DNA of 64,000 nucleotides from Sphaerisporangium corydalis. GTDB taxonomy: Bacteria > Actinomycetota > Actinomycetes > Streptosporangiales > Streptosporangiaceae. The stretch spans positions 1-64,000 of the forward strand of contig NZ_JANZYP010000015.1 in assembly GCF_025506355.1 (NCBI RefSeq), given 5' to 3'. Position numbers and translations under genes: made by a program. The notes below the pieces were generated by a model, which searched no databases, was not told the origin of the DNA, and worked only from the letters and a program-made list of their open reading frames with translations. This document shows positions 7,785 to 22,246 of the stretch, piece by piece; the first letter of the stretch is position 1; every line of letters starts with the position of its first letter.

Positions 7785-10034
7785 CTAGTCAGGCGCTTCC
7801 CATACTGTCAGGTTCCAGCTTCTTCGGATTTTGGAGATCGATCGCCAGGCTAGTTGTGCATCGATGGTGAATGCGTGCCGGGCGCCTGCCAAATCGTCGA
7901 AGATTCGGCTGCCGCGGACGCGATCGACGGTCAGGTGGCTGGTGAATATCTCTTCCAACGTCGCACAGAAGTAGATGTAGGTGGCGAACTCCAGCGATGG
8001 CCCGTCGAGGGGGTGGTCCAGCAGCGACTTCAGCACCTGTCGTGTCGCGGGAACCCTGTCGCGACGGGCGAGCCCGTGCATCAGGTCCAGGACGTCCAGA
8101 GGCATGGTGTGGTCACGTGCCGACTCCACAATGGCACGCGCCTTGTTGCACAGCTCTTCCCGGATCACCGCGGCGCAGATCGGCTCCAGCTTCGCACCGT
8201 CCGACAGGCCGCGCCCTATGCTGATCACGCTTCGCGCGGCTCGGATGAGGTCACGCGACAAGCCACCGGACAGGCAGTGGCAGAACGCGATGTACGGCTC
8301 CGCCAGACCTACGACGCGACGGTTCAGTAACCGCAGGGATTCGTCGTAGACGAGGAGGCCGACCCGAATGATCTCGTCGAAGGAACTGTCGAACGCGTCG
8401 CGGAAGGGGAGTCCTCGACGTTCGAAGGCGTTCATCGCGTCGTCGGACACCGAGATCATGAAATAGGTGTTCGGGAGCCCGAAGATGCCCTTGATCTCGT
8501 TGAGGAAACGCTGTGCGTCCTCACCCGACCCGATCTTGTCCAGCTCGTCGACGCCGATGTAGACGCTGTGCGCCGGCCGGAGGAACACCGCCACGTCCCG
8601 GGCATAGGCGCGGAAGGCCGAGACGATCTCCGGATAGCTGAGCGGCTGCTCCGCCCGGGAGCGGTTGTAGGACACCTGGCCTTCCACCCAAGCAGGTGCT
8701 TTCACCCCGCCTGACCAGCCGGAAGTGAATGTCTGCAGGTACCGGATCTGTGCCAGGTGCCCGCGCGCACGCACGACCAGGCGGGCGGGCCGGCCGGCCC
8801 GCCGTGCGCTTCTGTGGCGGTAGGCCGCGATAAGCAAATGGGCCGTACCCGCGCCGACGGTCACGAGGGAGATCAGCTGGGCGGTCTTTTCAGATGAGGT
8901 GAAGAGTGCGTTAGCGACCTCTGCCGGGATCAGCGATGCGGCTGTTTCGTAGAATCGCTCAAGGATCGGCGTCAGAAGGTCCGCCAGAGTCGCCAGGGTC
9001 GACACGGCCTCCTCCGGCCACTCGACCACGGCCCACGCCACCAGCCAGTATGCGAGAACAATACGAGTAAGACGAAACGCGAAGCGTGGTCTGCCGACAG
9101 TGGCGAAGTAGCGCAACGAGCGATGACAGAAGGTCGCGAAAAGATGCAGGACAAAGTCGCGTGGGGCGTATTCCACCGGAGCGGACACCAGGCACCGCAG
9201 ATCGGCCTGATCCGTCATCTCCGGGGGCTCCTGGCAGTATCGCCGGATGAGTGTGGACTTACCTGAGCCCCGTGGCCCCGCAAGGCCGATGCTGGCACTG
9301 GACAGGCGGTTCAGCAGGTCGTCGAGTTCGCGGGTGACGACCGTGGGCACGTGGTACACGCTGTCGAAGGCCTCGCTGAGTTCCGGATGCCCTGTCACGC
9401 TGAAGTCGTGGTCGAACCGGTCCTGCCGTCGTGCGTTGACGCGCTGACGCAACTGGGCCGTTAGTTCGTTCTCTTCCAGCGCCCTGACGAGGGCGCCGCG
9501 AGCCATCCACGCCGTTCCAGGGACAAAAGCCAGTGGTCGCACCAGCCTGTACACGCGGTCGAGAAGGACAGGCGCCACGGGTCTGGTGCTCACCCAGGAG
9601 CCGAGCAGAGCCAGCCCGCCAATGAACAGTGTGGGCACCTCGACGAGCCAGGGAATCGTCCAGCCAACGAGCAGGCTGAACAACAGCACGCTGACCCCGA
9701 GAACCGTCACCGTGTATCCGATTGCGGCCAGTCGCCCTTTGAGATGGCCCCTTGCGATGTCGAGGCCAATCAGGTCGACCCATTCGTCCAACCTGCGTCT
9801 GCCACCGTCACGTGCGAGCAGGTAGGCGTTGTACTCGTAGGGTACGGCGGCGAAGATCTCCTCGGCCTCCCGCATCATCTCTATTCTGATAGGCAGTGGC
9901 CGCACCCCGACATAGTCGAACCCGTCACGGATCTCCGGGTCCTTCAAAGCCTTGTTCAGCGCCCTCGTGTACAACTCGCGAAGGGCCAGGTCCTGGCAGA
10001 GAAGGTCGGCGGGGAAAACAGACTCATTCACCAC
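7785..10034 (-). CDS. KAP-type membrane P-loop NTPase
   Basis: A 749-residue protein with Walker A GPRGSGKST (about 254-262) and Walker B VYIGVDELDKI (about 490-500). Two hydrophobic helices lie near 325-343 and 393-411, between the two motifs, which is the defining topology of KAP NTPases (membrane helices inserted into the P-loop domain). A second hydrophobic pair near 105-150 precedes the NTPase. The C-terminal 230 residues are helical. KAP proteins are sporadic in bacteria and often plasmid- or defence-associated; the specific role here is unknown. Codon use looks less GC-biased than in the operon beside it, consistent with acquisition by transfer. Start is GTG; the gene stands alone, ending convergent with the ATPase gene. 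Confidence 0.8.
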   Translation of the reverse strand: MVNESVFPADLLCQDLALRELYTRALNKALKDPEIRDGFDYVGVRPLPIRIEMMREAEEIFAAVPYEYNAYLLARDGGRRRLDEWVDLIGLDIARGHLKGRLAAIGYTVTVLGVSVLLFSLLVGWTIPWLVEVPTLFIGGLALLGSWVSTRPVAPVLLDRVYRLVRPLAFVPGTAWMARGALVRALEENELTAQLRQRVNARRQDRFDHDFSVTGHPELSEAFDSVYHVPTVVTRELDDLLNRLSSASIGLAGPRGSGKSTLIRRYCQEPPEMTDQADLRCLVSAPVEYAPRDFVLHLFATFCHRSLRYFATVGRPRFAFRLTRIVLAYWLVAWAVVEWPEEAVSTLATLADLLTPILERFYETAASLIPAEVANALFTSSEKTAQLISLVTVGAGTAHLLIAAYRHRSARRAGRPARLVVRARGHLAQIRYLQTFTSGWSGGVKAPAWVEGQVSYNRSRAEQPLSYPEIVSAFRAYARDVAVFLRPAHSVYIGVDELDKIGSGEDAQRFLNEIKGIFGLPNTYFMISVSDDAMNAFERRGLPFRDAFDSSFDEIIRVGLLVYDESLRLLNRRVVGLAEPYIAFCHCLSGGLSRDLIRAARSVISIGRGLSDGAKLEPICAAVIREELCNKARAIVESARDHTMPLDVLDLMHGLARRDRVPATRQVLKSLLDHPLDGPSLEFATYIYFCATLEEIFTSHLTVDRVRGSRIFDDLAGARHAFTIDAQLAWRSISKIRRSWNLTVWEAPD

Positions 10035-10053: not shown

Positions 10054-10878
10054 TCAGGCCGGGGGTGGGGATTGGAGGCCGGGGGTGGTTACGGCGTCGG
10101 TGAGGATTCGGCGGGCTTGGCGGACCACGGCCTCGTCTACGAAGCGGCCGTCGGAGAGGGCCACGGCGCCTACGCCGGCGGCGGCCACGATGTCGTTGGC
10201 GGCCGAGATCTCCTGTTCGGTGGGGCGGTAGGCGGCCTCGATGACCGGGAGCTGGGAGGGGTGGATGGCGGCGCGGCCGCGGAAGCCCATGTCCCGGCCG
10301 GCGCGGCAGGACTCGGCCAGGCCCTCCAGGTCGTGGAAGTCGGTGTAGACCGACTGGACGGGGGCGGGCAGGCCGGCGGCGCGGGCGGCCACCACGATGC
10401 GCGAGCGCGCCCAGGACAGGCCCGCCTCGTCGCTGACCCCGAGGTCGGCGCGCAGGTCGGCCTCGCCGATGCCGACGCTCGCCACCGACGGGTCGGCCGA
10501 GGCGATCTCGTAGGCCCGTTCGAGGCCGATGGCCGACTCGATCAGGGGGTGCAGGTCGATGCCCGGCACGGCCTGGGCGACCTCACGCACCTCTTCGGCC
10601 GACTCGACCTTCGGCAGGCGGATCCCGGCCGTGCCGGAGGTCAGGGTTCCGATCGCGTGCAGGTCGACCTGGCCCTGGGCCGTGCGCGCATCGTTGATCC
10701 TGACCTGGACGCGCGGCTGCGGCACCGAGAGGAGCCGGACGACCTCGGCCCGTGCCAGTGCCTTGTTCTCCGGTGCGACGGCGTCCTCCAGGTCGACGAT
10801 CACCACGTCGGCGGGGCCGGCGAGCGCCTTGGCGACGAGCGCGGGACGGTCGGCGGGCGCGTAGAGCCAGGTCAGCAA
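10054..10878 (-). CDS. CitE-like HpcH/HpaI-family aldolase/lyase
   Basis: A 274-residue TIM-barrel lyase of the citrate-lyase beta-subunit family. Diagnostic stretches are YAPADRPALVAKAL, VDLEDAV (metal site) and VGIGEADLRADLG, plus the C-terminal RAAIHPSQL typical of the family. Stand-alone CitE homologues cleave acyl-CoA substrates such as malyl-, methylmalyl- or citramalyl-CoA; the exact substrate cannot be read here. It is the last gene of the ribosyl operon, 82 bp after the CoA-transferase, so the two probably act on a shared acyl-CoA. The start is TTG, set by AAGGAG eight bases upstream. Confidence 0.8.
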   Translation of the reverse strand: MLTWLYAPADRPALVAKALAGPADVVIVDLEDAVAPENKALARAEVVRLLSVPQPRVQVRINDARTAQGQVDLHAIGTLTSGTAGIRLPKVESAEEVREVAQAVPGIDLHPLIESAIGLERAYEIASADPSVASVGIGEADLRADLGVSDEAGLSWARSRIVVAARAAGLPAPVQSVYTDFHDLEGLAESCRAGRDMGFRGRAAIHPSQLPVIEAAYRPTEQEISAANDIVAAAGVGAVALSDGRFVDEAVVRQARRILTDAVTTPGLQSPPPA

Positions 10879-10960
10879 GTCGTCATCTCCTTGAAGGGCT
10901 TCATTGGTATGGGCGCGTCCGGATCGCTGTTGGCGAGACCGGGCGGGGTGGCGGGAGGCA

Positions 10961-12133
10961 TCAGATCGCTCCCTTGTCGCGTAGGGCGGTTATGTCCGAA
11001 GGGGAGAGGCCCAGGTCGGTGAGGATGGTGTCGGTGTCGGTGCCGTGGGGGCGGCCGGGCCAGGTGATTTCGCCGGGGGTGTCCGACAGGCGGAACATGA
11101 CGTTCTGCATCCGGAGGGGCCCGAGGTCGGGGTCCTCGACGGTGGTGATGGCGTCCAGGGCGGTGAGCTGGGGGTCGGTCATCACGTCCCGGACGTCGTA
11201 GATCGGCGCCACCGCCGCCTGGGCCTCGTCGAACGCGGCGAGGACCTCCTCGCGAGTGCGCGCGCCTATCCAGGTGGCGACGGCCTCGTCCAGTTCGTCG
11301 GCGTGCTCGACGCGGCCCGCGCCGGTGGCGAACCATGGTTCGGTGATGTGGTCGGGCCTGCCGACCAGGCGCATGACGCGTTCGGCGATGTTCTGCGCCG
11401 AGGTCGAGACGGCCACCCACGTGCCGTCCGCGCACTGGTAGGTGTTGCGCGGCGCGTTGTTCACGGAGCGGTTGCCGGTGCGCGGCGGCACGATCCCGAG
11501 CCGGTCGTAAATCGTCGGTTGCGCCCCGAGGACGGTCAGGAGCGGTTCGATGATCGACATGTCGACCACCTGCCCGGCTCCGGTCGATTCACGCGCGCGG
11601 AGCGCGGCCATCACCGCGTACGCGGTCGCGAGGGCGCAGATGCCGTCGGCGAGGCCGAACGGGGGCAGGGTGGGCGGGCCGCCCGGTTCGCCGGTCATCG
11701 CGGCGAACCCGCTCATCGCCTCGGCCAGCGTGCCGAACCCGGGCCGTTTCGCGTACGGGCCGAACTGGCCGAAGCCGGTGACCCGGGCGAGGACGAGGCG
11801 GGGGTTGGCCTCGCGGAGCCGGTCGTAGGAGAGGTTCCAGCGCTCCAGCGTGCCTGGCCTGAAGTTCTCGATGATGACGTCGGTGTCCCGCGCGAGGGCG
11901 AGGAGCAGGTCCTGGCCCTCGGTGGCGGACAGGTCGAGGGTCATCGTCCGCTTGTTGCGGCCGAGCATCTTCCACCACAGGCCGCCGGGGCCGTGCCCGC
12001 GCGAGGGGTCCGGCCGGGTCGGGTGTTCCACCTTGACGACCTCGGCGCCGTAGTCGCCGAGCAGCATCGCCGCCATCGGGCCGGCGAACAGGGTCGCGAG
12101 GTCGAGTACCCGGATGCCCTCAAGGGCCTTCAT
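10961..12133 (-). CDS. CaiB/BaiF-family (class III) CoA-transferase
   Basis: A 390-residue enzyme. The N-terminus EGIRVLDLATLFAGPMAA, VVKVEHP and NKRTMTLDL, and the region GLADGICAL with the family's catalytic Asp, are characteristic of formyl-CoA/succinyl-CoA:carboxylate CoA-transferases. It transfers CoA between carboxylic acids in the cytoplasm. ATG at 12133 was chosen over the GTG one codon earlier because GGAGG is then six bases away. It lies 31 bp after the ribokinase gene and before the CitE-like lyase, which suggests activation and cleavage of an acid derived from the imported compound. This link is inference. Confidence 0.85.
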   Translation of the reverse strand: MKALEGIRVLDLATLFAGPMAAMLLGDYGAEVVKVEHPTRPDPSRGHGPGGLWWKMLGRNKRTMTLDLSATEGQDLLLALARDTDVIIENFRPGTLERWNLSYDRLREANPRLVLARVTGFGQFGPYAKRPGFGTLAEAMSGFAAMTGEPGGPPTLPPFGLADGICALATAYAVMAALRARESTGAGQVVDMSIIEPLLTVLGAQPTIYDRLGIVPPRTGNRSVNNAPRNTYQCADGTWVAVSTSAQNIAERVMRLVGRPDHITEPWFATGAGRVEHADELDEAVATWIGARTREEVLAAFDEAQAAVAPIYDVRDVMTDPQLTALDAITTVEDPDLGPLRMQNVMFRLSDTPGEITWPGRPHGTDTDTILTDLGLSPSDITALRDKGAI

Positions 12134-12164
12134 CACGTTCCTCCATGCGTCGTTATGGCCGCTC

Positions 12165-13229
12165 TCACGCCGGTGGTCGTCGCAGGGCGGCGTCTATTTC
12201 GGGGCGGGTGGGCATGGAGGTGCTGGCGCCCTCGCGCTGGACCGACAGGGCCGCCGCCGTGGTGGCGAAGCGCAGGGCCTCGCCGATGGGGCGGCCTTCG
12301 GCACGGGCCACGGCGAGGGCGCCGACGAAGGTGTCCCCCGCCGCCGTGGTGTCGACGGCCTTGACCGGTACGGCGGGCACGCGCAGGCGCTCGCCCCGCC
12401 GGACGCCGGAGCGTCCGCCCGAGGGGGTGCCGGGTCGTCCGGGCGAGCGGGAGCCGTACAGGGCACCGCGTTCGCCGAGGGTGATCACCACCTCGGGGAC
12501 GAGTTCCAGCAGGGCTTCCAAAGCCTCTTCCGGGTCGGCGAGGCCGGTGATCGCCGCGGCCTCGTGCTCGTTGGGGACGATCAGGTCGACGGCGTCGAGC
12601 AGCTCGCGGGGCAGATCCTGGACGGGCGCCGGGGTGAGGATCACCGGGACGCCGGCCGCGCGGGCGGCGGCCACGACGGCGTCCATGGGCAGTTCTAGCT
12701 GGAGCAGTAGGGCGTCGGAGCGGGAGATGACCGCCAGGTCCGCCTCGGAGACGCCCGTCACGGTGCCGTTGGCGCCGGGCACGACGATGATCGAGTTACC
12801 GCCCTGGTCGTCGACGACGATGTGGGCGATGCCCGAGGGGCCTGGCACGGTGCGGAGGCGGCTGACGTCGACGCCCGCCGACTCCAGTGCCTGGCGCATC
12901 ACGGGCCCGAAGGCGTCGTCCCCGACGGCACCGATGAACGCCACCCCGGGAGCGCGTGGGGTCAATGTCCCGGGTCCTGCGGCGATCCCGGGCGCGGATG
13001 TCCCGGGTTGCGCGTCGGGCCCGGGTGTGGATGTCCCGGGGCGCGCGTCGGCCGCGGGGGTGGGTGGAGGTGGGGTGGAGGTGGCGCGGGCGGCGGCGGT
13101 GGCCTGGTTGGCGCCCTTGCCGCCGGGGATGGTGGCGAATGCCCGGCCGGTCACCGTCTCGCCGCGCTTGGGGGCCTTGGTCACGTACGCGACCAGGTCC
13201 ATGTTGGCGCTGCCGAACACCGAGATCAT
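12165..13229 (-). CDS. rbsK: Ribokinase (PfkB family) with an in-frame repeat insertion
   Basis: A 354-residue sugar kinase. The N-terminal signature GSANMDLV, IPGGKGANQA, GAVGDDAFG and the C-terminal VDTTAAGDTF with the catalytic Asp are classical ribokinase. It would phosphorylate ribose to ribose-5-phosphate in the cytoplasm. Between GGKGANQATAAAR and GVAFIGAVGDD, where normal enzymes have two to four residues, there is an extra block of about 45 Pro/Gly/Thr-rich residues made of 11-residue repeats. This sits beside the sugar-binding loop, so it could affect activity or simply loop out. GGAAGGA precedes the ATG. The gene begins 22 bp after the fourth ADP-ribosylglycohydrolase. Confidence 0.9.
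   Translation of the reverse strand: MISVFGSANMDLVAYVTKAPKRGETVTGRAFATIPGGKGANQATAAARATSTPPPPTPAADARPGTSTPGPDAQPGTSAPGIAAGPGTLTPRAPGVAFIGAVGDDAFGPVMRQALESAGVDVSRLRTVPGPSGIAHIVVDDQGGNSIIVVPGANGTVTGVSEADLAVISRSDALLLQLELPMDAVVAAARAAGVPVILTPAPVQDLPRELLDAVDLIVPNEHEAAAITGLADPEEALEALLELVPEVVITLGERGALYGSRSPGRPGTPSGGRSGVRRGERLRVPAVPVKAVDTTAAGDTFVGALAVARAEGRPIGEALRFATTAAALSVQREGASTSMPTRPEIDAALRRPPA
12963..13061 (-). repeat. 33-bp x3 minisatellite inside the ribokinase gene
   Basis: ATGTCCCGGG-centred units recur at 12963, 12996 and 13029 (33-bp period, 11 codons). They encode repeats of the form PGTSTPGPDAQ. The unit length keeps the reading frame. Confidence 0.85.
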
Positions 13230-13251
13230 CGTTGGTCCTTCCGCGTGCCCG

Positions 13252-14622
13252 TCACCCGGAGGACCCTGCGGGGATGAGCGCCAGGGTACGGCGGGTGAGC
13301 TCGTCGAAGCCGATGCCGTCGAAGCCGCGCAGGCTGCTGGCCAGCCGGTTCTTCATCGACCATCCGGAGGGTATCCCGGAAGCGCCGAGCAGCCCGCCAG
13401 CTATCGATCCGGCGGTCGCGCCCGCCGAGTCGGTGTCCCAGCCTCCGGCGACCGCACCGGCGATCGACGCGGTGAAGTCGCCCCGCGCATGGGTCAGGGC
13501 CGCCGCGACGAGGGCCGTGTTGTTGATCGTGTGGACCCAGTGGAGGTCGCCGTGGCGCGCGTACAGCCGGTCCACGACCCGCTCGAAGTCCGGCTCGGCG
13601 CGGGCGTCGGCGACGGCGTCTCGTACGGCCTGGGCCAGCCGTGACCCGGCGGGTACGACCGACAGGCCGGCGGTGATGACCTCGTCGACCGAGGAGGCCA
13701 CCAGGGACCGCGCGCACATGGCGGCGACCATCATGGCGCCGTAGACGCCGTTGGCGGTGTGGCTGAGGCGGGCGTCGCGCCAGGCGTACGCGGCGGCCGT
13801 GCGGGCGTCGCCGGGGTTGACCCAGCCGTACACGTCGGCCCTGATGAGGGCGCCGATCCACTCCCGGAACGGGTTGCGCCACGTCGCCGTGCGCGGGGGT
13901 TCGATCCCGTCGAGCAGGTTGCGGTACGCCACCCGCTCGGCGGTGAAGACGCGGCCGGCGGGCAGCTCGTCCAGCCATATCGTGGCCACGTCGGCGGTGG
14001 TGAAGTCGCGGCCGAAGCGTTCGAGCAGGGACAGGGCGAGGAGCGGGAAGTTGAGGTCGTCGTCCTCGGGGACGCCGTCGATGTTCTCGGCCAGGGAGTT
14101 GACGGCGCTACGCCGGTTCCACGGCCAGCGGGCCGCCACCTCGTCCGGCAGGCCGGCGGCGGTGAACCAGCCTCGGATCGGCCAGTTGCCGGTGGCCTCC
14201 GCGATCTCCCTGATGCCCTCGCGGGGGATCTTCTCGACCGGCTTGCCGAGCACGCACCCGGCCGCCCGCCCGAGCCACGCGCCGAGCACCCGTTCGCGCA
14301 GGTCCTCCCACCCCCTGCCTGCTGTTCGCATGCTTCCCGGAGCGCTCGCCTGGATCGCGGGGAGGTCGGAGGGTTCGGGGAGCGGGGACGGGATGGCGGC
14401 CAGTTCGCCGAGCAGTTCGACCGCCAGTGCGCGCGTCTCCGGCGTGGCGGGCTCGGGCGAGGCCCCCGCGCGGGGCGGCGCGTCGTGGCCTCCTGCGGCG
14501 TGCCACCGTGCCGCTATGGAGACCACCTCGGCGGCCCGGCCGTCCTCGACGGCCTGACGCAACTCGTGACCGACCAGATCCTCCGCCTGCACCCAGGTCA
14601 GCCGCAACAGACGGTCACTCAT
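13252..14622 (-). CDS. ADP-ribosylglycohydrolase-family protein, fourth paralogue (long form)
   Basis: A 456-residue protein with an additional N-terminal region of about 105 residues before the all-helical ADPRH/DraG fold. The usual GDALG reads GRAAGCVLGKPVE, so the first metal-site Asp is not conserved. The acidic DDD (PEDDDLN) and the C-terminal GGWDTDSAGATAGSIAG, matching the GxDxDS metal motif, are present. Family members hydrolyse N- or O-ribosyl bonds using two Mg ions. ATG overlaps the stop of the preceding paralogue (ATGA), so translation is coupled. The sub-family suggests a different ribosyl substrate or a partner role for the shorter paralogues. Confidence 0.85.
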   Translation of the reverse strand: MSDRLLRLTWVQAEDLVGHELRQAVEDGRAAEVVSIAARWHAAGGHDAPPRAGASPEPATPETRALAVELLGELAAIPSPLPEPSDLPAIQASAPGSMRTAGRGWEDLRERVLGAWLGRAAGCVLGKPVEKIPREGIREIAEATGNWPIRGWFTAAGLPDEVAARWPWNRRSAVNSLAENIDGVPEDDDLNFPLLALSLLERFGRDFTTADVATIWLDELPAGRVFTAERVAYRNLLDGIEPPRTATWRNPFREWIGALIRADVYGWVNPGDARTAAAYAWRDARLSHTANGVYGAMMVAAMCARSLVASSVDEVITAGLSVVPAGSRLAQAVRDAVADARAEPDFERVVDRLYARHGDLHWVHTINNTALVAAALTHARGDFTASIAGAVAGGWDTDSAGATAGSIAGGLLGASGIPSGWSMKNRLASSLRGFDGIGFDELTRRTLALIPAGSSG

Positions 14623-15791
14623 GCCGGGTTGTCCGTGGGGGTGGGGTGGGTTAGGGAGGTGAAGGCGGATTCGTGGGTGCGGCGGGTGGTGAGGTCGGTG
14701 GCGTGGATGCGGCGGGTGAGGTCGGCGATGGTGACGCCGGGGGAGATGAGGTCCATTTTGCTGGCGTGGGCCACCGGGTCCAGCCATTCGGACGGGACGG
14801 CCTCGGCGCCCGCGAGGGCGCCGGCGATGGCGCCGCCCATGCTGGCGATGGAGTCGGCGTCGCGGCCGTAGTTCACTCCCCCGAGGACGGTGTCGCGGTA
14901 GCCGCCCCCGGCGATCAGCAGGAAGGCGAGCGCCAGCGGTAGTTCCTCGATGCTGTGCAGGCGGCTCGGCCGGCGGGCGCCGAGCCCCTGGTCGCGGTAG
15001 GTGTCGGCGACCGTGTCGAACGGGGCGACGGCCTCGCGCAGCGCGGCGAAGGACCCCTGCCAGTGGCCGAGGTCGCGGGCCCGTTCGCAGACGGCCTCGA
15101 TGGCGGCACGCGTGCCGTCCCTGGCCAGGCGCAGGCAGGTCGCCACCACCGAGTCGGGGGTGGCGCCCGGGCGCATGGCTTCGGCGACGGCGGCGGCCAG
15201 CACCCCGGCCGCCTCCCGCCCGTAGCTGGACTGATGGGCGCCCGCCAGGTCGACGGCCTCGGCGTACGCGCCGTCGGGGTTGGCGGCGTTCACGATGCCG
15301 ACCGGGGCCATGTACATCGCGGCGCCGCAGTTGACGATGTTGCCGACGCCCGCCTCGCGCGGGTCGACGTGGCCGTAGTGCAGGCGCAGGACCAGCCACT
15401 TCTCGGCGAGGAAGACGCGGTGCAGCGGCAGCGCCTCGGCCTCCAGCTCCGGGATCCAGCGCTTCTCGCCCATCATCTCGGGTACCAGGTGCTCGGCCGC
15501 CGCGTACGCGTCGAGGTGGCCGCCGACCTTCTCGTACACGCGGATGAGCGCGTGCGTCATGAGGGTGTCGTCGGTCACGTGGCCGTCGCCCTTGTGGTAC
15601 GGCGCGATGGGGCGGGCGTTGCGCCAGTCCTCGAAGTACGGGGGGACGATGCCGGTCACGTACCCGCCGTAGCGGTCGTGGATCTGCTCGGGGGTCCAGC
15701 CTTCGGTGGCGCCGCCGAGCGCGTCGCCGACCGCCGCGCCCGCGACGCATCCGACGGCCTTGTCGGTGAGCGGGTCCTCGAAGTGCGTCAT
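14619..15791 (-). CDS. ADP-ribosylglycohydrolase-family protein, third paralogue
   Basis: A 390-residue protein. GCVAGAAVGDALGGATEGW near the N-terminus, HVTDDTLMTHALI (about residue 75) and GRDADSIASMGGAIAGAL (about residue 330) supply the complete set of metal-binding acidic motifs of the DraG/ARH fold. It should therefore be an active N/O-ribosyl hydrolase, acting in the cytoplasm (no signal peptide). Its ATG overlaps the second paralogue's stop, and its stop overlaps the fourth paralogue's start, both as ATGA. Substrate is unknown; the neighbouring ribokinase suggests that ribose or a ribosyl phosphate is a product. Confidence 0.9.
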   Translation of the reverse strand: MTHFEDPLTDKAVGCVAGAAVGDALGGATEGWTPEQIHDRYGGYVTGIVPPYFEDWRNARPIAPYHKGDGHVTDDTLMTHALIRVYEKVGGHLDAYAAAEHLVPEMMGEKRWIPELEAEALPLHRVFLAEKWLVLRLHYGHVDPREAGVGNIVNCGAAMYMAPVGIVNAANPDGAYAEAVDLAGAHQSSYGREAAGVLAAAVAEAMRPGATPDSVVATCLRLARDGTRAAIEAVCERARDLGHWQGSFAALREAVAPFDTVADTYRDQGLGARRPSRLHSIEELPLALAFLLIAGGGYRDTVLGGVNYGRDADSIASMGGAIAGALAGAEAVPSEWLDPVAHASKMDLISPGVTIADLTRRIHATDLTTRRTHESAFTSLTHPTPTDNPA

Positions 15792-16759
15792 GTCAGTCCT
15801 TCGGCGATGTCGATGAGGTCGGTGCCGGCCAGGTCGGGGAGGGCGCAGCCGGGCAGGGTGCGGGCGGCGGACCGCCAGGGGGCGGGGAGCGCGGCGGCGC
15901 CGGTGAAGGCGCCGGTGAGCGCGCCGGTCAGGGCGGGGGCGGAGTCGGCGAGCGAGGGCAGGCACGCGGCGGCGGGCACGGCGGCGGTGAGCGCGCCGCC
16001 GGACACCTCGGCCAGGGCGAGCGCGACCGGCACCGTCTGGGCCGCGGCGACCCCGTAGCTGTACACGTGGTCGACCAGGGCGGCGTCCAGGCCGGGGACC
16101 GCCGAGAAGGGGTCGCCCGCGGCCCGGGCCACCGCGAGCGCGGTCCTGGCGGCGTGGCCGATCGCGGTGTCCCCGGGCAGTTCGGCGAGGGCCGCCTGGA
16201 CGGCCGAGGCCATGGACCCGCCCGCGACGAGCTCGGCGACCGCGGCGGCCATGGCCATCGCCGCGAGGACGCCGTCCCCGGCGTTGGTGACCGTGGCGTC
16301 GGCGCGCGGGTCGGCCCCGATCGCGCCGAACGCGACGGCCCGCACGGCCGCGGCGTCGTCGAAGTGGTGCGGGTTGTCGTGCCCGCTGGCGGGGGGCCGT
16401 TTGCCGGCCGCCAGGTTGTCCAGCGCGGCGCGCACCGAAATGCGCACCCGCAGGTCGGTGCGCCCGGCGAGCCGGCCGAAGGCCTCGGCCCGGTCGTCCC
16501 GGATCGTCAGCGCGGTCCAGGCGAGCCATTCGGCGTCGTCGGATGGGCCGGTGGCCAGCGGTCCTGTGGGCTGGTTCAGGGTGAACGGCACGGGCAGGGT
16601 GGTGACCCGGTGCTCTTCGGCGAACCCGTCCAGTTCTCGTTCGAGCCGTCTGCTCCAGGGCGCGAGCAGCGCGGATCGGTGCCGCGCCGACGGCCAGCCC
16701 GCGGCGTCGCCGATGGCGAGGCCGACGAAGGCCCCGCGGATCCTGTCCCCCGATGACAT
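15788..16759 (-). CDS. ADP-ribosylglycohydrolase-family protein, second paralogue (altered metal motif)
   Basis: A 323-residue protein. The N-terminal AFVGLAIGDAAGWPSARH and the SDDAEWL motif (about residue 73) are conserved. The C-terminal GxDxD(S/T) motif is changed: SLADSAPALTGAL aligns with RDADTTAAIAGAL of the first paralogue, so the first Asp is Leu and only the second remains. Two metal-bound acidic residues are normally needed for full ARH activity, so this member may be weak, specialised or a regulatory partner. It is Ala-rich. It follows the first paralogue after a 188-bp gap filled by a tandem repeat, and overlaps the third by ATGA. Confidence 0.85.
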   Translation of the reverse strand: MSSGDRIRGAFVGLAIGDAAGWPSARHRSALLAPWSRRLERELDGFAEEHRVTTLPVPFTLNQPTGPLATGPSDDAEWLAWTALTIRDDRAEAFGRLAGRTDLRVRISVRAALDNLAAGKRPPASGHDNPHHFDDAAAVRAVAFGAIGADPRADATVTNAGDGVLAAMAMAAAVAELVAGGSMASAVQAALAELPGDTAIGHAARTALAVARAAGDPFSAVPGLDAALVDHVYSYGVAAAQTVPVALALAEVSGGALTAAVPAAACLPSLADSAPALTGALTGAFTGAAALPAPWRSAARTLPGCALPDLAGTDLIDIAEGLT

Positions 16760-16794
16760 CTCCCTCTCCTGTTCCCTCTTATCCCTCTATCCCG

Positions 16795-16940
16795 CGCATC
16801 GGACCCATGAACCCACGCATCAGACCCATGGACCCACGCATCAGGCCCGTGAACCCACGCATCAGGCCCGTGGACTTACGCGTCAGACCCGCGAACCCAC
16901 GCATGGGACCCGTAAGCCCAGGCGTCGGACCCGTGAACGC
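16795..16940. repeat. 21-bp minisatellite, seven units, between two operon genes
   Basis: Units of the type GACCCATGAACCCACGCATC follow one another from about 16802 with a 21-bp period. The later units are more diverged. It occupies most of the only large intra-operon gap in the hydrolase block. On the minus strand one frame reads GLMRGFT-like heptads, but it is not in frame with either gene and has no start of its own. Confidence 0.9.
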
Positions 16941-16947
16941 CCCGCCG

Positions 16948-17901
16948 TCACGTCGTGGTCCCGGTGGCGGCCACCAGGTCGGTGGCGACGTCGAGGACGT
17001 GACGGCCCGCGACGGCGGGGAGGCAGCGGCCGGTGACCGGGCCGATCTCCCTGACCCACCGCTCCGGTACGGCGGCCTCGCCGTGCCCTGCCCCTGCGAG
17101 GGCACCGGCGATGGCCGCGGTCGTGTCGGCGTCCCTGCCGAGGTTGGCGGCCGACACCACCGACTCCTCCACCCGCCCGCCGCCCATCAGGTAGCCCGCG
17201 AAGGCCAGGGCGACCGCCTCGGGGGCGAGGTCCGTCCACGGGTAGTGGCGCACGACCACGGCCCGGTACAGCTCGTCGACCGAGTCCGCCGCCACGGCCG
17301 CCCGCAGGTTGCGTGCGGTCCAGGAGTCCACGGGGATCGCGGCGATGCCGGCCTCGGCGACCTCGCCGGGCGCGGCGCCGGTCATGGCCACGGCGACGGC
17401 GGCCGCGACGGCCTGCCCGCCGTACACCCCTTCGCCGCTGTTGCTCACCGCGCCGTCGACGGCCACCAGCCGGGCCGCCTCGCCGGGGTCGCCGGCGGCG
17501 AAGATCCCGTACGGCGCGGCGCGCATGGCCAGGCCGTCGGACCAGCCGTGCTGGTGCCACATCCCCGACAGCGGCGGCTCCAGGCCCCGGCGCAGGGCCT
17601 GGACGGCGCCGAGCTCGGAGAACCCGGCGCCGCGCATCGGGCCGTCGATGCGCGGGATGATCTGCTCGCGGTACGCGCGGGCGACGTCCGCCGAGGTCAT
17701 GGCGGCGCCGTGGGCGCACAGCAGGGACGCGGCGAAGATGGTGTACTCGGTGTCGTCGGTGCCGCCCTGGCCGGGTTCGATCTCAGTGAGCCGTCCCCAG
17801 CGCCGGGCGATCTCCTCGGGGGCGAGGTTCTCGGCGGGCCGCCCGAGGGCGTCGCCGGCCGCCAGGCCGAGCAGGCACCCCCGGGCGCGGGTCAGCCTCA
17901 C
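16948..17901 (-). CDS. ADP-ribosylglycohydrolase-family protein, first paralogue
   Basis: A 317-residue protein beginning at a GTG whose last two bases lie in the stop codon of the binding-protein gene (GTGA overlap). It carries the full motif set: GCLLGLAAGDALGRPAENL (Asp near 17), GGTDDTEYT (Asp 49/50) and LGRDADTTAAIAGALAGAG near residue 275. It is the most typical DraG/ARH-like member of the four and is translationally coupled to the sugar importer, so it probably acts first on the imported ribosyl compound. Cytoplasmic, no signal sequence. Substrate unknown. Confidence 0.9.
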   Translation of the reverse strand: MRLTRARGCLLGLAAGDALGRPAENLAPEEIARRWGRLTEIEPGQGGTDDTEYTIFAASLLCAHGAAMTSADVARAYREQIIPRIDGPMRGAGFSELGAVQALRRGLEPPLSGMWHQHGWSDGLAMRAAPYGIFAAGDPGEAARLVAVDGAVSNSGEGVYGGQAVAAAVAVAMTGAAPGEVAEAGIAAIPVDSWTARNLRAAVAADSVDELYRAVVVRHYPWTDLAPEAVALAFAGYLMGGGRVEESVVSAANLGRDADTTAAIAGALAGAGHGEAAVPERWVREIGPVTGRCLPAVAGRHVLDVATDLVAATGTTT

Positions 17902-19205
17902 TTGCTGTACCGCTCCAGCACCTTGTCGCCCTCGCCGACGAGCGTCGCGGCCACCTGGTCCAGAGTGATCTTGTTCGCGAAGTACTGCTGCAGGGCGGGG
18001 GTGGCGACCTTGGTCTTCCACTCGTCGAACCCGTTCACCCGCAGGTAGGGCGCGACCACCAGGTTCTTGGCCGAGGCGGTCGCCACGTCCCAGCCGTTCT
18101 CCTTGGTCGTCATGGACGGGTCGCTGGCGGCCTTGGTGCTGGTCGGCAGCAGCCAGTCGCCCCTGGCGAGCTTGGCCTGGTTGGCGCTGCCGAGAAAGTA
18201 GGAGATGAACGCCGCCGACTGGTCGGGGTACTTGCTGTCGGCGGCCACCGACAGCGTCTGGGAGGTGGCGCCCTGGTCGGAGCTGGTGCCCTTCAGCGGC
18301 GGGATGGTGATCCACTCGAAGCCGGGCGGGGCCTGCTCCACGACCTGCTGGCGCAGGTAGACCCCGGCGGGCAGCAGGGCGTACTTGCCGGCGTAGAAGC
18401 CGGGGAGCGGGTCGGCGGTGCCCATGCCGAGCGCGGACGGGTCGGCGGACTTGTCCTTGTAGAGCTGGTCGTGGATCCGCTGGAGGACCTCGCGCTCCTC
18501 GGGGCCGACCTTGACCGTCGCCTTGGTGCCGTCGACGGTGAAGAACGTGCCGCCGAAGTTCAGGCCGAGGTTGAGCACCTTGTTGACGGGCGACTTCAGC
18601 GGCCACGCCGTCCCGAAGGCGCCGCCCTTGGTGAGCTTCTTGCTGATCTGGGCGAACTCGTCCCAGGTCCACGGGGTCTCGGGGGTCGGGATGCGCACCT
18701 TCGCCGCGTCGAGGAGCTTCTTGTTGCCGATGATGACCTGCGACTCCTGCAGGAACGGCACGCCGTACACGCCTTGGCCGCCCTTGCCGTCGCCGAAGGT
18801 GACGGTGTCCCAGGCGGGCTGCGGGATGTCGCTCTTCAGCTCAGCGGGCAGCTTCCCGGTGAGGTCCATGAGGTAGCCGCGCGACGCGAAGCCGGCCAGC
18901 GCCGGGGAGTCGTCGTGGATGACGTCCGGCGGGTCGCCCCCCTCGAACGAGGTGACGAGCTGGTCGTTGACGTTGTCCCAGCTCCCCTGCACGTATTCGA
19001 CCTGGGTGCGGGGGTTGGCCTTGTTCCACTCGGCGACGATCTCCTTGTTGGCGGCGATGGACTCCTTCTGCCAGGCCAGGCTCAGGAACTTCAGGGTCAC
19101 GGGCTCGGCCGGGGTGCCGCCGCCGGTGGCGCCGCCCGACGAGCAGCCGGCCGTCAGCACGGCGACCGCGGCCGCCGCCACCGCGAGTGCGGTTCTGGTA
19201 CGCAA
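17898..19205 (-). CDS. ABC transporter substrate-binding lipoprotein (CUT1 type)
   Basis: A 435-residue extracellular solute-binding protein of family 1. The signal peptide ends in the lipobox LTAGC (Cys 21). The mature part has the usual WNKANP, VTSFEGGDPPDV and PWTWDEFAQ stretches. I chose the TTG start at 19205 because AAGGAG lies seven bases upstream and the resulting signal peptide is normal. An ATG at 19289 overlapping the permease stop would add 28 residues and is the alternative. It binds the sugar or glycoside for the two permeases encoded upstream. No ATPase gene is present; actinomycete CUT1 systems normally share a distant MsiK-type ATPase. Confidence 0.9.
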   Translation of the reverse strand: MRTRTALAVAAAAVAVLTAGCSSGGATGGGTPAEPVTLKFLSLAWQKESIAANKEIVAEWNKANPRTQVEYVQGSWDNVNDQLVTSFEGGDPPDVIHDDSPALAGFASRGYLMDLTGKLPAELKSDIPQPAWDTVTFGDGKGGQGVYGVPFLQESQVIIGNKKLLDAAKVRIPTPETPWTWDEFAQISKKLTKGGAFGTAWPLKSPVNKVLNLGLNFGGTFFTVDGTKATVKVGPEEREVLQRIHDQLYKDKSADPSALGMGTADPLPGFYAGKYALLPAGVYLRQQVVEQAPPGFEWITIPPLKGTSSDQGATSQTLSVAADSKYPDQSAAFISYFLGSANQAKLARGDWLLPTSTKAASDPSMTTKENGWDVATASAKNLVVAPYLRVNGFDEWKTKVATPALQQYFANKITLDQVAATLVGEGDKVLERYSK

Positions 19206-19285
19206 GTGGATCTCCTTACGGGTGCTACCGCCGTGGCGTCGCCTGGCTCGGCCCGCCGCGTCCGGTCGAAGGGGCATTGCGGGGG

Positions 19286-20104
19286 TCATCCCTTGACCGC
19301 GCCGGCCATGAGGCCCGACCTGAGCCGTCTCTGGATGATCGCGAAGAACACCAGGCTGGGGATCGTGGCGAGGAGCGCCGCCGCCGCCAGCGGTCCGAGG
19401 CGCACGACGCCCTCCGCGCCGGTGAACTTCACGAGGGTCAGCGGCAGGGTCGCCATTCCCGGGTCTTTCAGGACGACCAGCGCGAACAGGAACTCGTTCC
19501 ACGAGGAGACGAAGGCGAACAGCAGGGTGGCGACGACGCCGGGCGCGAGCAGCGGCGCGACGACCTTCACCAGCGAGCGGATCCGGCCCGCGCCGTCCAC
19601 CGCCGCCGCCTCCTCCAGCTCGCGCGGCACCGAGCGCACGTACCCCTGGAGCATCCACAGCGCGAACGGCAGCGTGAAGGTGACGTGGACGATGGTGAGG
19701 CCCGGCAGGGTGTTCACCAGGTCCAGCCGCCGCAGAACCATGAACAGCGGGATGATGATCAGGATGAACGGGAAGACCTGGCTGACCAGCACCCATCCGA
19801 TCGCGAACCGGTTGACCAGCGAGCGGTGCCTGGCCATGGCGTACGCGGCGGGCAGGGCGAGCACGACGGTCAGCACCGCGCTCGCGACCGCGACCGCCAG
19901 GCTGCGCAGCGCGCTGCCGACGATGTCCTGCTCGCCGAACGCGTCGGCGAAGTTGGACAGGACGGGGTGGCGCGGGATCCACGTGGGGGTGAGGCCCGCC
20001 ATCTCCTGGGAGGTCTTCAGCGCCGTGGACAGCAGCCACACCAGCGGGAATGCCAGGAACACCACGTAGCCCAGCAAAGCGAGGTACTGCAGCGGCCTGC
20101 GCAT
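19286..20104 (-). CDS. Carbohydrate ABC transporter permease (MalG-like)
   Basis: A 272-residue inner-membrane protein with six predicted helices. The EAA loop that contacts the ATPase is VPRELEEAAAVDGAGRIRSL, and SWNEFLFALVVL is typical of the MalG branch. It forms a heterodimer with the MalF-like permease, whose stop codon overlaps its ATG by one base. Together with the lipoprotein it imports the inducing substrate of the LacI-controlled operon. Confidence 0.92.
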   Translation of the reverse strand: MRRPLQYLALLGYVVFLAFPLVWLLSTALKTSQEMAGLTPTWIPRHPVLSNFADAFGEQDIVGSALRSLAVAVASAVLTVVLALPAAYAMARHRSLVNRFAIGWVLVSQVFPFILIIIPLFMVLRRLDLVNTLPGLTIVHVTFTLPFALWMLQGYVRSVPRELEEAAAVDGAGRIRSLVKVVAPLLAPGVVATLLFAFVSSWNEFLFALVVLKDPGMATLPLTLVKFTGAEGVVRLGPLAAAALLATIPSLVFFAIIQRRLRSGLMAGAVKG

Positions 20105-21030
20105 CAGCCCACCTCCCTCATCTGCCGCCACAGGTAGACGCCCAGCACGGCCAGCACGACGATCACGATGGCGACGCCGAGGGTGGCGGCGTACCCGAAG
20201 AAGCCGTAGCGGAAGGCCTCCTCGTAGGCGAAGAGCATCGGCAGGCGGGTCTGCCCGCCGGGGCCGCCCTGGGTCAGGACGTAGACCAGGCCGAACTGGT
20301 TGATGTTCCAGACGAAGTCCAGGGAGGTGATCGTCACGATGACCGGGCGGAGCTGCGGCAGCGTGATGTTCCAGAAGCGGCGCCAGGTCGAGGCGCCGTC
20401 CATGTGGCCGGCCTCGTACAGTTCCTTCGGCACGCCCTGGAGGCCGGCGAGCAGCACGACGGTGGTCTGCGGCATGCCCGTCCAGACGCCGACGACGATC
20501 ACGGCGGGCAGCGCGACGGAGAAGTCGTTGAGCCAGTCGACGTCGTGGCTCAGCAGGCCGAGGTCGGTCAGGACGCTGTTGAGTATCCCGGCGTTCGGGT
20601 GGTAGACCAGCCGCCACATCAGGCCGATGACGACCGGCGGCATGGCCCACGGCACCAGGACCAGCACCCGGGCGAACGCGCGGAACCGCAGGTTCTCGTT
20701 GAGCAGCAGCGCCAGCCCGAGCGAGGCGGCGAACTGCAGGACGGTCACCGAGACCGCCCAGATCATGCCGATGCGGAACGACGCCCAGAAGTCCCCGTCG
20801 GTCAGCAGGTCGCCGAAGTTGGCCAGGCCCACGAACGAGGTCTCGGCGTTGCGGCCGGACCTGGCGTCGGTGAAGGCGAGGAAGACGCCGTACAGCAGCG
20901 GACCGACGCTGAAGACCAGGACCGGCACCAGCGCGGGCAGCATCAGGATGAGCGTCTCGCGCCCCTGGCGGCCGGTCCGAGGTGTGCGGCGGGCGGGGGG
21001 CGTCCGGGTCCGTTCGGCGGTGAGGGTCAT
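20104..21030 (-). CDS. Carbohydrate ABC transporter permease (MalF-like)
   Basis: A 308-residue membrane protein. The hydrophobic N-terminus LILMLPALVPVLVFSVGPLLY and the EAA loop VPKELYEAGHMDGASTWRRF identify the MalF/UgpA branch of CUT1 permeases. Its ATG overlaps the lacI stop (ATGA), so repressor and importer are translationally coupled. This unusual repressor-first order allows strong feedback control of the whole operon. Confidence 0.92.
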   Translation of the reverse strand: MTLTAERTRTPPARRTPRTGRQGRETLILMLPALVPVLVFSVGPLLYGVFLAFTDARSGRNAETSFVGLANFGDLLTDGDFWASFRIGMIWAVSVTVLQFAASLGLALLLNENLRFRAFARVLVLVPWAMPPVVIGLMWRLVYHPNAGILNSVLTDLGLLSHDVDWLNDFSVALPAVIVVGVWTGMPQTTVVLLAGLQGVPKELYEAGHMDGASTWRRFWNITLPQLRPVIVTITSLDFVWNINQFGLVYVLTQGGPGGQTRLPMLFAYEEAFRYGFFGYAATLGVAIVIVVLAVLGVYLWRQMREVG

Positions 21031-22040
21031 GGGGTCTCCTCTCCGGTGGTTGAGGCGCGTACCACGAGCCGGGGTTCCACGGTGACCACGCGGGGCGCGC
21101 GGCGGCCGTTGTCCAGCCGGTCGAGCAGCAGCTCGGCGGCGGCGCGCCCGCGCTCGGCCGAGCCCATCGAGACGCTGGTCAGCGCGGGCCAGGCGATCGT
21201 GGCGAGGTCGGTGTCGTCCATGCCGGCGACCGCGACGTCCTGCGGCACCCGCCGGCCGGCCCGCCGCAGGACGTCGAGCGCCCCGAGCGCGATCAGGTCG
21301 TTGGCGCACAGCAGCGCGTCCAGGTCCGGCTCCCGTTCGAGCAGCCGGGCCACCGCGCGGGCGCCGTCGGTGCGGTAGAAGTCGCCGACCTCGACGAGGG
21401 AGGGGTCGTACGGCAGGCCGAGCGCGGGCAGCGCCTCGGCGTAGGCGGCCGAGCGTGCGGCGCCGGGGACGGTGTCCACCGGGCCGTTGACGAAGCCGAT
21501 CCGCCGGCGGCCCAGGGCGTGCAGGTGGCCGACGGCCAGGCGCACGCCCTTTCGGGAGTCGGTGCGCACGTTGTCCACCGGGGTGCCCTCGGGCACCGAG
21601 CCGATGATCACGATCGGCGCGCGGGCCGCGGCGAACATGTTCAGGTGCTCGGCGGTCACCCGTAGCGGCACCATGATCAGCCCGTCGATGTACCGCTCCC
21701 CCAGGCCGCGCAGCACGTCGATCTCGTCGGCCTCGTCCACGTTGGTGGAGTGCAGGACGAGCCGGTAGCCGGCCGCCTTGAACAGCGGCTGGATCTCGCG
21801 GATCATCGCCAGGTACACCGGGTTGCCGATGTCGGCCATCGCGAAGCCGAGCTGGTTGCTGCGCCGCGACTTCAGCGACCTGGCGGCCGAGTTCGGGACG
21901 TAGCCGAGCTCGCGGGCGGCGCTCATCACGCGGCGCTCGGTGTCGGCCTTGGTGGGCAGGCCGTTGAGCACGCGGGACACCGAGGCGATGGACACTCCGG
22001 CGCGCTGGGCGATCGTCGTGATCGTCGGCCCGTCGCTCAT
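21027..22040 (-). CDS. LacI-family repressor of the ribosyl operon
   Basis: A 337-residue regulator. The N-terminal HTH reads TITTIAQRAGVSIASVSRVLNG (residues 6-27) and the hinge helix is NSAARSLKSRRS. The periplasmic-binding-protein-like effector domain follows (FAMADIGNPVYLAMIREI onward). It is the first gene of an eleven-gene minus-strand operon and lies directly behind two perfect GTAAACGTTTAC palindromes, the standard LacI/GalR-type operator core, so autoregulation is very likely. The effector should be the imported sugar moiety. GAGGTG lies five bases ahead of the ATG. Confidence 0.93.
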   Translation of the reverse strand: MSDGPTITTIAQRAGVSIASVSRVLNGLPTKADTERRVMSAARELGYVPNSAARSLKSRRSNQLGFAMADIGNPVYLAMIREIQPLFKAAGYRLVLHSTNVDEADEIDVLRGLGERYIDGLIMVPLRVTAEHLNMFAAARAPIVIIGSVPEGTPVDNVRTDSRKGVRLAVGHLHALGRRRIGFVNGPVDTVPGAARSAAYAEALPALGLPYDPSLVEVGDFYRTDGARAVARLLEREPDLDALLCANDLIALGALDVLRRAGRRVPQDVAVAGMDDTDLATIAWPALTSVSMGSAERGRAAAELLLDRLDNGRRAPRVVTVEPRLVVRASTTGEETP

Positions 22041-22068
22041 GTGTCACCTCGGTACTCGGGGGCGTACG

Positions 22069-22080
22069 GTAAACGTTTAC
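22069..22080. promoter_or_regulatory. LacI-type operator, proximal copy
   Basis: GTAAACGTTTAC, a perfect 12-bp palindrome with central CG, lies 29 bp upstream of the lacI start. Confidence 0.85.
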
Positions 22081-22101
22081 AGTTGGGGATGGCGGGTTTC
22101 T

Positions 22102-22113
22102 GTAAACGTTTAC
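22102..22113. promoter_or_regulatory. LacI-type operator, distal copy
   Basis: A second identical GTAAACGTTTAC lies exactly 33 bp from the first, about three helical turns, so two repressor dimers could sit on the same DNA face and bind cooperatively or as a tetramer. Confidence 0.85.
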
Positions 22114-22246
22114 TGGATGAGGGAATGTAACACGCACGACACATCCAGCGTCAAGTCACGATGCGGTAAAACACCCCAAAAACGGGACCGGTCAGGGTCG
22201 TGTCGGGCGTTCCTGACGGGCGTGCTCGCGCCTGAGGTCGTCCGCG

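Follow-up and report, generated by a model that had tools for sequence, protein, structure and literature searches.

A 64,000-nt stretch of Sphaerisporangium corydalis DNA (contig NZ_JANZYP010000015.1, positions 1 to 64,000; the whole stretch is referred to below as the window) carries eleven co-directional minus-strand genes, from a LacI-family repressor gene at 22040-21027 through to a CitE-like lyase gene at 10878-10054. Between them lie genes for a CUT1 sugar importer (two permeases and a binding lipoprotein), four members of the DraG/ARH family PF03747 (ARH1 to ARH4), a PfkB kinase, and a class-III coenzyme A (CoA) transferase. Our preferred interpretation is that the operon serves the breakdown of a citramalate-containing (ribo)furanoside, and we assign to this scheme as a whole a probability of about 0.48. 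The more general conclusion, that this is a catabolic operon with conserved gene order and a single predicted operator target, is held with greater confidence than the scheme as a whole. No described pathway of this kind was found in a search of the open literature.

According to the scheme, a single-target LacI repressor would control an ATP-binding cassette (ABC) importer of the CUT1 kind together with a cytoplasmic breakdown line. In the imported glycoside, citramalate would be combined with a ribose-like furanose. As metal-dependent glycohydrolases, ARH3 and ARH4 would release the sugar and the citramalate moiety, and ARH1, with ARH2, whose site is altered, would contribute an accessory cleavage where the forms are larger or decorated. 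Phosphorylation of the freed pentose would fall to the PfkB kinase, the CoA-transferase would convert citramalate to citramalyl-CoA, and the CitE-like lyase would split the latter into acetyl-CoA and pyruvate. All of the activities, the order of the steps, the furanose, and the substrate itself are predictions from sequence.

Two alternative acid modules accompany the ARH genes

A search with ARH3 yielded 80 named loci, the best of 590 confirmed candidates, as well as 22 plasmid records; the 85 mapped loci discussed here are the 80 named ones and five of six plasmid records that were fetched. A cassette with a transporter, ARH3, and an ARH4-type gene is also found in Pseudomonadota and Bacillota. 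In Rhizobiales, Devosia, and Rhodobacterales, the typical order is LacI-permeases-binding protein-ARH3-ARHb-(UgpC)-CoA-transferase-CitE, where ARHb is a protein of ~700 aa, found in other phyla, whose group is sister to ARH4. In Bacillota, the typical set consists of a regulator, AtuA, DUF4387, permeases, a binding protein, ARH3, ARHb, and a kinase. Among the 85 loci, the CoA-transferase is present in 40, CitE in 34, and AtuA with DUF4387 in 30, and no locus carries both systems; a Sporosarcina locus of Bacillota (L181) has the CoA-transferase and CitE and no AtuA. Among the 69 loci with long flanks, 33 contain the CoA-transferase or CitE and 26 contain AtuA. One or the other acid module was found in 59 of the 64 long-flank loci with an ARH4-type gene and in none of the five without one; since the rows are related, Fisher values calculated from the long-flank counts are not to be read as probabilities.

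The AtuA proteins match chain A of structure 9erq, deposited as "Citramalate lyase, subunit A (cmlA)", with E-values of 1.3e-120 (L177) and 1.1e-135 (L171), and the corresponding match of DUF4387 (L177) is to chain B, with an E-value of 2e-32. Both matches are near full length, and DUF4387 adjoins AtuA in 30 of 30 AtuA loci, as the two subunits of CmlAB would. The identity of 9erq is taken from the deposited names; a search of the open literature for a paper on this citramalate lyase found none. The Bacillota cassettes would encode, as far as these matches go, both subunits of a CmlAB-like enzyme (9erq/9evf), in the place of which the window has the CoA-transferase and CitE.

The best NCBIfam model for the window CitE is RipC (NF038242, 189.8 bits), and its best solved match is 3qll, which we take to be RipC, with 8khl and 9nzb nearly tied. 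Itaconate is degraded through Ict/RipA, RipB, and RipC. The window resembles this pathway in combining a CoA-transferase with a CitE-like lyase that has RipC as its best model, but differs from it in the absence of a hydratase from the eleven genes, in the score below the cut-off, and in the genetic context. The CoA-transferases of the three-phylum cassettes, including the rhizobial, Sporosarcina, and window proteins, form one clade (16 rows, support 96/91) apart from five of seven other own-genome CoA-transferase matches (L220 and L221 were left out).

The main ground for naming citramalate is that two unrelated enzyme systems, both of which fit citramalate cleavage, occupy the same slot. A citramalate moiety in the substrate is, on this evidence, likely. 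Such a link would give AtuA/DUF4387 and the CoA-transferase with CitE a common physiological role, and turns the identity of the sugar into a testable question on a natural compound. We more tentatively propose a pathway that would extend over three phyla and serve an environmentally widespread citramalate-bearing furanoside, with ARH-fold proteins as catabolic glycosidases, arranged in two couplets, and with ARH2 as a partner with an altered site.

Several observations weigh against a citramalate furanoside. The window CitE falls far below the RipC cut-off of 375 bits, so another 3-hydroxy acid is possible, and for the CitE proteins of rhizobial locus L106 and of Sporosarcina L181, citE is a better-scoring model than RipC. 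The Paraglaciecola CoA-transferase lies outside the cassette clade, the swap between the CoA-transferase and AtuA is confounded with phylum in all loci bar one, and ten of the 69 long-flank loci have neither acid module. The kinase is near the CoA-transferase or CitE in 2 of 33 long-flank loci, and an acid module is present in 25 of 30 long-flank loci with a kinase and in 34 of 39 without one, that is, there is no tie overall; because of these kinase counts, our confidence in the whole scheme was slightly lowered. Finally, we know of no natural riboside of citramalate.

The operon could be of the same catabolic type and act on a different 3-hydroxy acid (malate, 3-hydroxy-3-methylglutarate, or a relative of citrate), in which case the citramalate-lyase match would reflect a broader family. 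In line with this, CitE and the CoA-transferase score below every curated cut-off, and the best model for the CoA-transferase is of the succinate-glutarate type. However, the extent of the CmlA and CmlB matches and the rank of RipC among the models for CitE speak for citramalate, and we consider a different acid unlikely.

The Paraglaciecola arctica locus (L150) has ARH3, an ARH4-type gene, the CoA-transferase, CitE, and a kinase near a sulfatase gene, melibiase-like genes, and sodium symporters. A search for further relatives among 274 genomes of the class to which Paraglaciecola belongs found one, Paraglaciecola itself.

The ARH proteins form four ancient subfamilies and two couplets

All four ARH proteins match PF03747 over the whole model and above the gathering score (E-values of 8.3e-56, 5.7e-25, 4.4e-48, and 2.8e-49), and three of them have the acidic metal residues of the DraG/ARH family. 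They differ from the family in lying in a sugar-uptake operon and, in the case of ARH2, in lacking a conserved metal-motif Asp. The best window scores are 62 bits for the DraG equivalog model TIGR02662 (cut-off 337) and 49 bits for Tri1 (NF041672, cut-off 490). Window ARH3 is 81.6% identical to ARH3 of Nonomuraea gerenzanensis. The own genome, a 9.48-Mb draft in 162 contigs, contains five PF03747 genes, four of them in the operon, and in seven of nine named genomes checked, all PF03747 matches (two or four) are inside the cassette; matches outside it were found in Caballeronia (L126, one) and Devosia (L116, two).

A tree of 59 rows, from nine cassette loci plus others, resolved the proteins into clades of ARH1 (12 rows, support 99/91), ARH2 (12 rows, 100/99), ARH3 (13 rows, 100/99), and ARH4 together with ARHb, its sister group (15 rows, 100/100). 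ARH1 and ARH2 are sister clades (99/94). Each of the four clades holds members from both Actinomycetota and Bacillota; some deep branches are long and were flagged by the program. Judging from the tree, the ARHs are four ancient, separate subfamilies, and a recent tandem duplication is ruled out. The fifth PF03747 gene of the own genome (G000:C2:106002-106775) falls outside the four clades.

The genes form two couplets, ARH1 with ARH2 and ARH3 with ARH4, which are found apart as well. No gene was mapped between ARH1 and ARH2 in loci carrying both, and most Pseudomonadota and Bacillota loci have ARH3 and an ARH4-type gene with a transporter and without ARH1 or ARH2. In Bacillus sp. AFS088145 (L177), the genes ARH3, ARHb, ARH1, and ARH2 follow one another; its near relative L180 has, by match, a partial ARH1-ARH2 part, so the evidence for all four in Bacillota comes from a single intact genome.

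The acidic residues of both metal motifs, assigned to metals on the presumption that human ARH3 is a valid guide, are kept in every row of ARH1 (40 rows), ARH3 (36), and ARH4 (37), with Glu or Arg replacing Thr before DD in ARH4. In ARH2, the C-terminal DxD(T/S) motif is without its first Asp in 39 of 39 rows, and Glu is missing from GDxxGxPxE in 30 of 32 (seven rows start too late to be judged); ARH2 of L080 has lost further metal-motif residues. These results bear out the distinct motif states that the initial annotation had read from the window alone, and raise the possibility that ARH2 serves as a partner to ARH1 and is not a normal hydrolase. The same annotation had the four enzymes strip a ribosyl compound step by step. 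That proposal survives in part, with two couplets in place of four equal steps.

Streptomyces counterparts and ADP-ribose metabolism

From its gene surroundings, we take genus g33 to be Streptomyces. The gene order of locus L084 is gltD, gltB, a VIT-like gene, ARH1 to ARH4, the CoA-transferase, CitE, lgt, one further gene, trpA, and trpB (flank genes were named by eye). We match this order one to one to SCO2025-SCO2037 of S. coelicolor. The cassette fits, by synteny, SCO2028-SCO2033, in which SCO2028 and SCO2030 would be ARH1 and ARH3. Compared in this way, via L084, SCO2028-SCO2031 have the ARH1-ARH4 gene order; the difference is that, in two sources, they are named as uncharacterised DraG/ARH homologues (SCO2028-2031, PMC9411070) or listed as uncharacterised or putative ADP-ribosyl hydrolase homologues (SCO2028-2030, PMC5087735). 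SCO2038 is placed in trpCXBA in PMC5036795.

A local transporter is absent from all 11 g33 loci. In 8 of the 11 genomes, a binding protein (50-53% identity) and two permeases (60-65%) are encoded elsewhere, which rules out transporter loss for these; in the other three, no transporter homologue was found at an E-value of 1e-20.

The initial annotation had proposed salvage of ADP-ribose, nicotinamide adenine dinucleotide (NAD) breakdown products, or nucleosides such as nicotinamide riboside by stepwise deribosylation. The ARH fold and the ribokinase-like kinase would suit this role, as would small cassettes with a transporter, ARH3, and a kinase, and without an acid module (L126, L135, and L147). 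However, family scans of the eleven genes found no nudix, nucleosidase, phosphatase, or base-handling family, and no gene that would deal with ADP, AMP, or a base. Neither ADP-ribose nor NAD fragments nor nicotinamide riboside are the type of cargo that a CUT1 sugar importer carries, and the module accompanying the ARHs across three phyla, be it the CoA-transferase with CitE or the citramalate-lyase-like genes, fits cleavage of citramalyl-CoA or citramalate. Moreover, purified SCO2028 and SCO2030 are reported to have no detectable activity on U-alpha-ADPr, one ADP-ribose substrate (PMC13036486). Salvage of this kind is very unlikely in our view.

It could also be supposed that the ARHs reverse ADP-ribosylation of proteins or nucleic acids and are chance neighbours of transport genes. 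The family name and the listing of the S. coelicolor homologues as putative ADP-ribosyl hydrolases agree with such a function, but the conserved co-direction with the transporter, kinase, and acid module, and the absence of any ADP-ribosyltransferase family from the scans of the eleven genes, make it extremely improbable. Reversal of ADP-ribosylation is the function under which the ARH family is annotated and, in Streptomyces, studied, and a "lively ADP-ribosylation metabolism" was inferred from the number of its members (PMC5087735). If the cassette ARHs are carbon-catabolic, as a role in citramalate furanoside breakdown would imply, both the annotations and this statement would need revision.

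Transporter, kinase, and the sugar

Permease matches place the transporter in the CUT1 class, and the solved matches of the binding protein are mostly named sugar binders, one of them for arabino-oligosaccharides. The window kinase scores 271.4 bits to the ribokinase model TIGR02152 (cut-off 299.65) and carries an insertion; the kinase of L126, which sits with a LacI regulator, a GluP-type sugar transporter, and ARH3 alone, passes the model at 349.9. Transporter and kinase matches alone name no specific sugar, and a ribose-like furanoside is suggested as the substrate. The kinase is dispensable, since none was found in 6 of the 33 loci that combine all four ARHs with the CoA-transferase and CitE. 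Its length is 354 aa in the window vs. 290-346 aa in 28 relatives. A 33-bp tandem repeat, present three times at 12965-13063, gives rise to a proline-rich insertion in the window kinase.

An ordinary oligosaccharide operon, with the ARHs as another glycosidase family and the CoA-transferase and CitE acting on an unrelated acid, would account for the CUT1 transporter. The C-terminal part of rhizobial ARHb has a faint levanase match (E-value 0.07), and an ARH-domain protein of L079 with a signal-like N terminus is encoded near an alpha-amylase-like gene. This reading is distinctly unlikely, given that, in three phyla, the ARHs are found together with either the CoA-transferase and CitE or the genes that replace this pair.

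An extra gene with a C-terminal SUMF1-like domain is present in 10 of 14 cassettes of family f19, in one Devosia locus, and in one Paracoccaceae locus. In Pfam and among solved structures, matches of its product are to the SUMF1 portion, with the exception of one chance-level match; for the N-terminal part, a profile comparison with a melibiase-like protein was not significant.

Conservation of the operon

When 296 genomes of the class were searched with ARH2, 61 had a match at E<=1e-3, a count that includes weak family members. In the own genus, the four ARHs occur together in 6 of 11 genomes, with the own genome among the six. Of forty neighbourhoods fetched, 35 came from 34 of the 61 genomes, selected for strong hits and spread, and the remaining five came from the own genus. 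All 11 genes are present in identical order, with an occasional inserted gene, in 21 of the 40 (seven of family f1 and 14 of f19; L095, whose CitE is cut by the stretch end, is counted), and all four ARHs are present in 35 (ARH4 of L069 is cut by a contig end). The neighbourhood search that the initial annotation had recommended as a check thus finds the four paralogues together, and the 21 neighbourhoods that share the full order speak against a coincidental arrangement. The CoA-transferase and CitE are present in 33 of the 35 four-ARH loci, the other two (L067 and L069) being on contigs of <14 kb; a kinase is found in 27 and a local transporter in 24. In L080, the blocks are permuted (CoA-transferase-CitE-LacI-permeases-binding protein-ARH3-ARH4-ARH1-ARH2) and no kinase was found. 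Among the loci without the full ARH set, L070 and L071 have ARH1 and ARH2 with their own LacI and ABC genes, L079 carries ARH1, ARH2, and an ARH4-like gene as a variant set, L089 has an ARH4-like gene alone, and L100 is at a contig end. Across 396 genomes drawn evenly from the phylum, ARH3 was found in 12 at E<=1e-20, ten of them strong (the own genome and nine of genus g33); the cassette is therefore patchy.

The ARH-domain protein of L079 (13013-14968) is 651 aa long, its N terminus was judged signal-like by eye, and its gene is also near the ARH1/ARH2/ARH4-like ABC cassette. In L070 (79-7248), a CoA-transferase of the cassette clade and CitE are found near GntR, a RraA-like/NAD-binding fusion, and a DctM transporter, ~8 kb from the ARH1 and ARH2 ABC operon.

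Regulation

Two GTAAACGTTTAC palindromes are located upstream of lacI, between a promoter-like sequence and the gene. With one mismatch or less allowed, these are the only two copies in the 9.48-Mb assembly, and the reversed control pattern has none; with two mismatches or less, they are the only two in the window, compared with 0.16 expected. A similar palindrome pair, often with one imperfect copy, is present upstream of lacI in 13 of 13 relatives inspected; in the four relatives of families f19 and f36, the sites are GGAAACGTTTCC or nearly so. CTTGACG is present upstream in 10 of the 13. Because the operator copies are unique in the assembly and such pairs are found upstream of lacI in relatives, these data point to one LacI regulator with one predicted target. 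The operon has a LacI gene, a binding-protein gene, two permease genes, and a predicted operator at the promoter, as expected of a LacI-controlled CUT1 sugar operon.

Operon layout

The gene set named in the initial annotation was confirmed by Pfam and NCBIfam matches (the Pfam scan took ten proteins, CitE not among them). It had also reported overlaps of 1-4 nt at most junctions. Overlaps of this size are real (4, 1, 4, 4, and 4 nt) and occur at five of ten junctions, so "most" does not hold; the other five have gaps of 80, 188, 22, 28, and 82 nt with the starts chosen. The start of the binding lipoprotein was picked from a lipobox read by eye, and an alternative start at 19289 is possible.

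Table 1. Positions of operon genes, predicted control elements, and SUMF1-domain genes
Feature	Position	Strand	Basis or remark
Probable promoter, TTGACG - 18 nt - TTACAT	22125..22154	-	by eye; just upstream of operators
LacI operator 1, putative	22100..22115 (core GTAAACGTTTAC at 22102-22113)	-	palindrome
LacI operator 2, putative	22067..22082 (core 22069-22080)	-	33 bp from operator 1
LacI-family repressor	21027..22040	-	Pfam LacI
CUT1 permease A (MalF/UgpA type)	20104..21030	-	Pfam BPD_transp_1, NCBIfam
CUT1 permease B (GlcU/MalG type)	19286..20104	-	Pfam BPD_transp_1, NCBIfam
Sugar-binding lipoprotein (SBP_bac_1)	17898..19205	-	Pfam; lipobox
ARH1, acidic metal motifs intact (GTDDTE, GRDADTT)	16948..17901	-	Pfam, alignment, tree
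ARH2, altered metal site (SDDAE; SLADSAP replacing GRDADTT), adjoins ARH1	15788..16759	-	
ARH3, acidic metal motifs intact, VNCGAAMY signature, three phyla	14619..15791	-	
ARH4, acidic positions intact, N-terminal extension of ~110 residues	13252..14622	-	
PfkB / ribokinase-type sugar kinase with repeat insertion	12165..13229	-	Pfam, NCBIfam
Class-III CoA-transferase	10961..12136	-	Pfam CoA_transf_3, tree
CitE-like CoA-ester lyase	10054..10878	-	best NCBIfam model (S)-citramalyl-CoA lyase RipC, below cut-off
SUMF1-domain gene	L075:4686-6725		N-terminal part glycosidase-like by eye
SUMF1-domain gene	L139:16435-18423		N-terminal part glycosidase-like by eye
SUMF1-domain gene	L118, about 15277-17184		N-terminal part glycosidase-like by eye

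A possible extension of the operon into a 749-aa gene on the same strand (7785-10034), 19 nt past CitE, was dropped, as the 749-aa protein had no homologue at an E-value of 1e-10 across the 40 neighbourhoods. The largest gap of the operon, between ARH1 and ARH2, is mostly filled by a 21-bp tandem repeat present seven times at 16791-16938.

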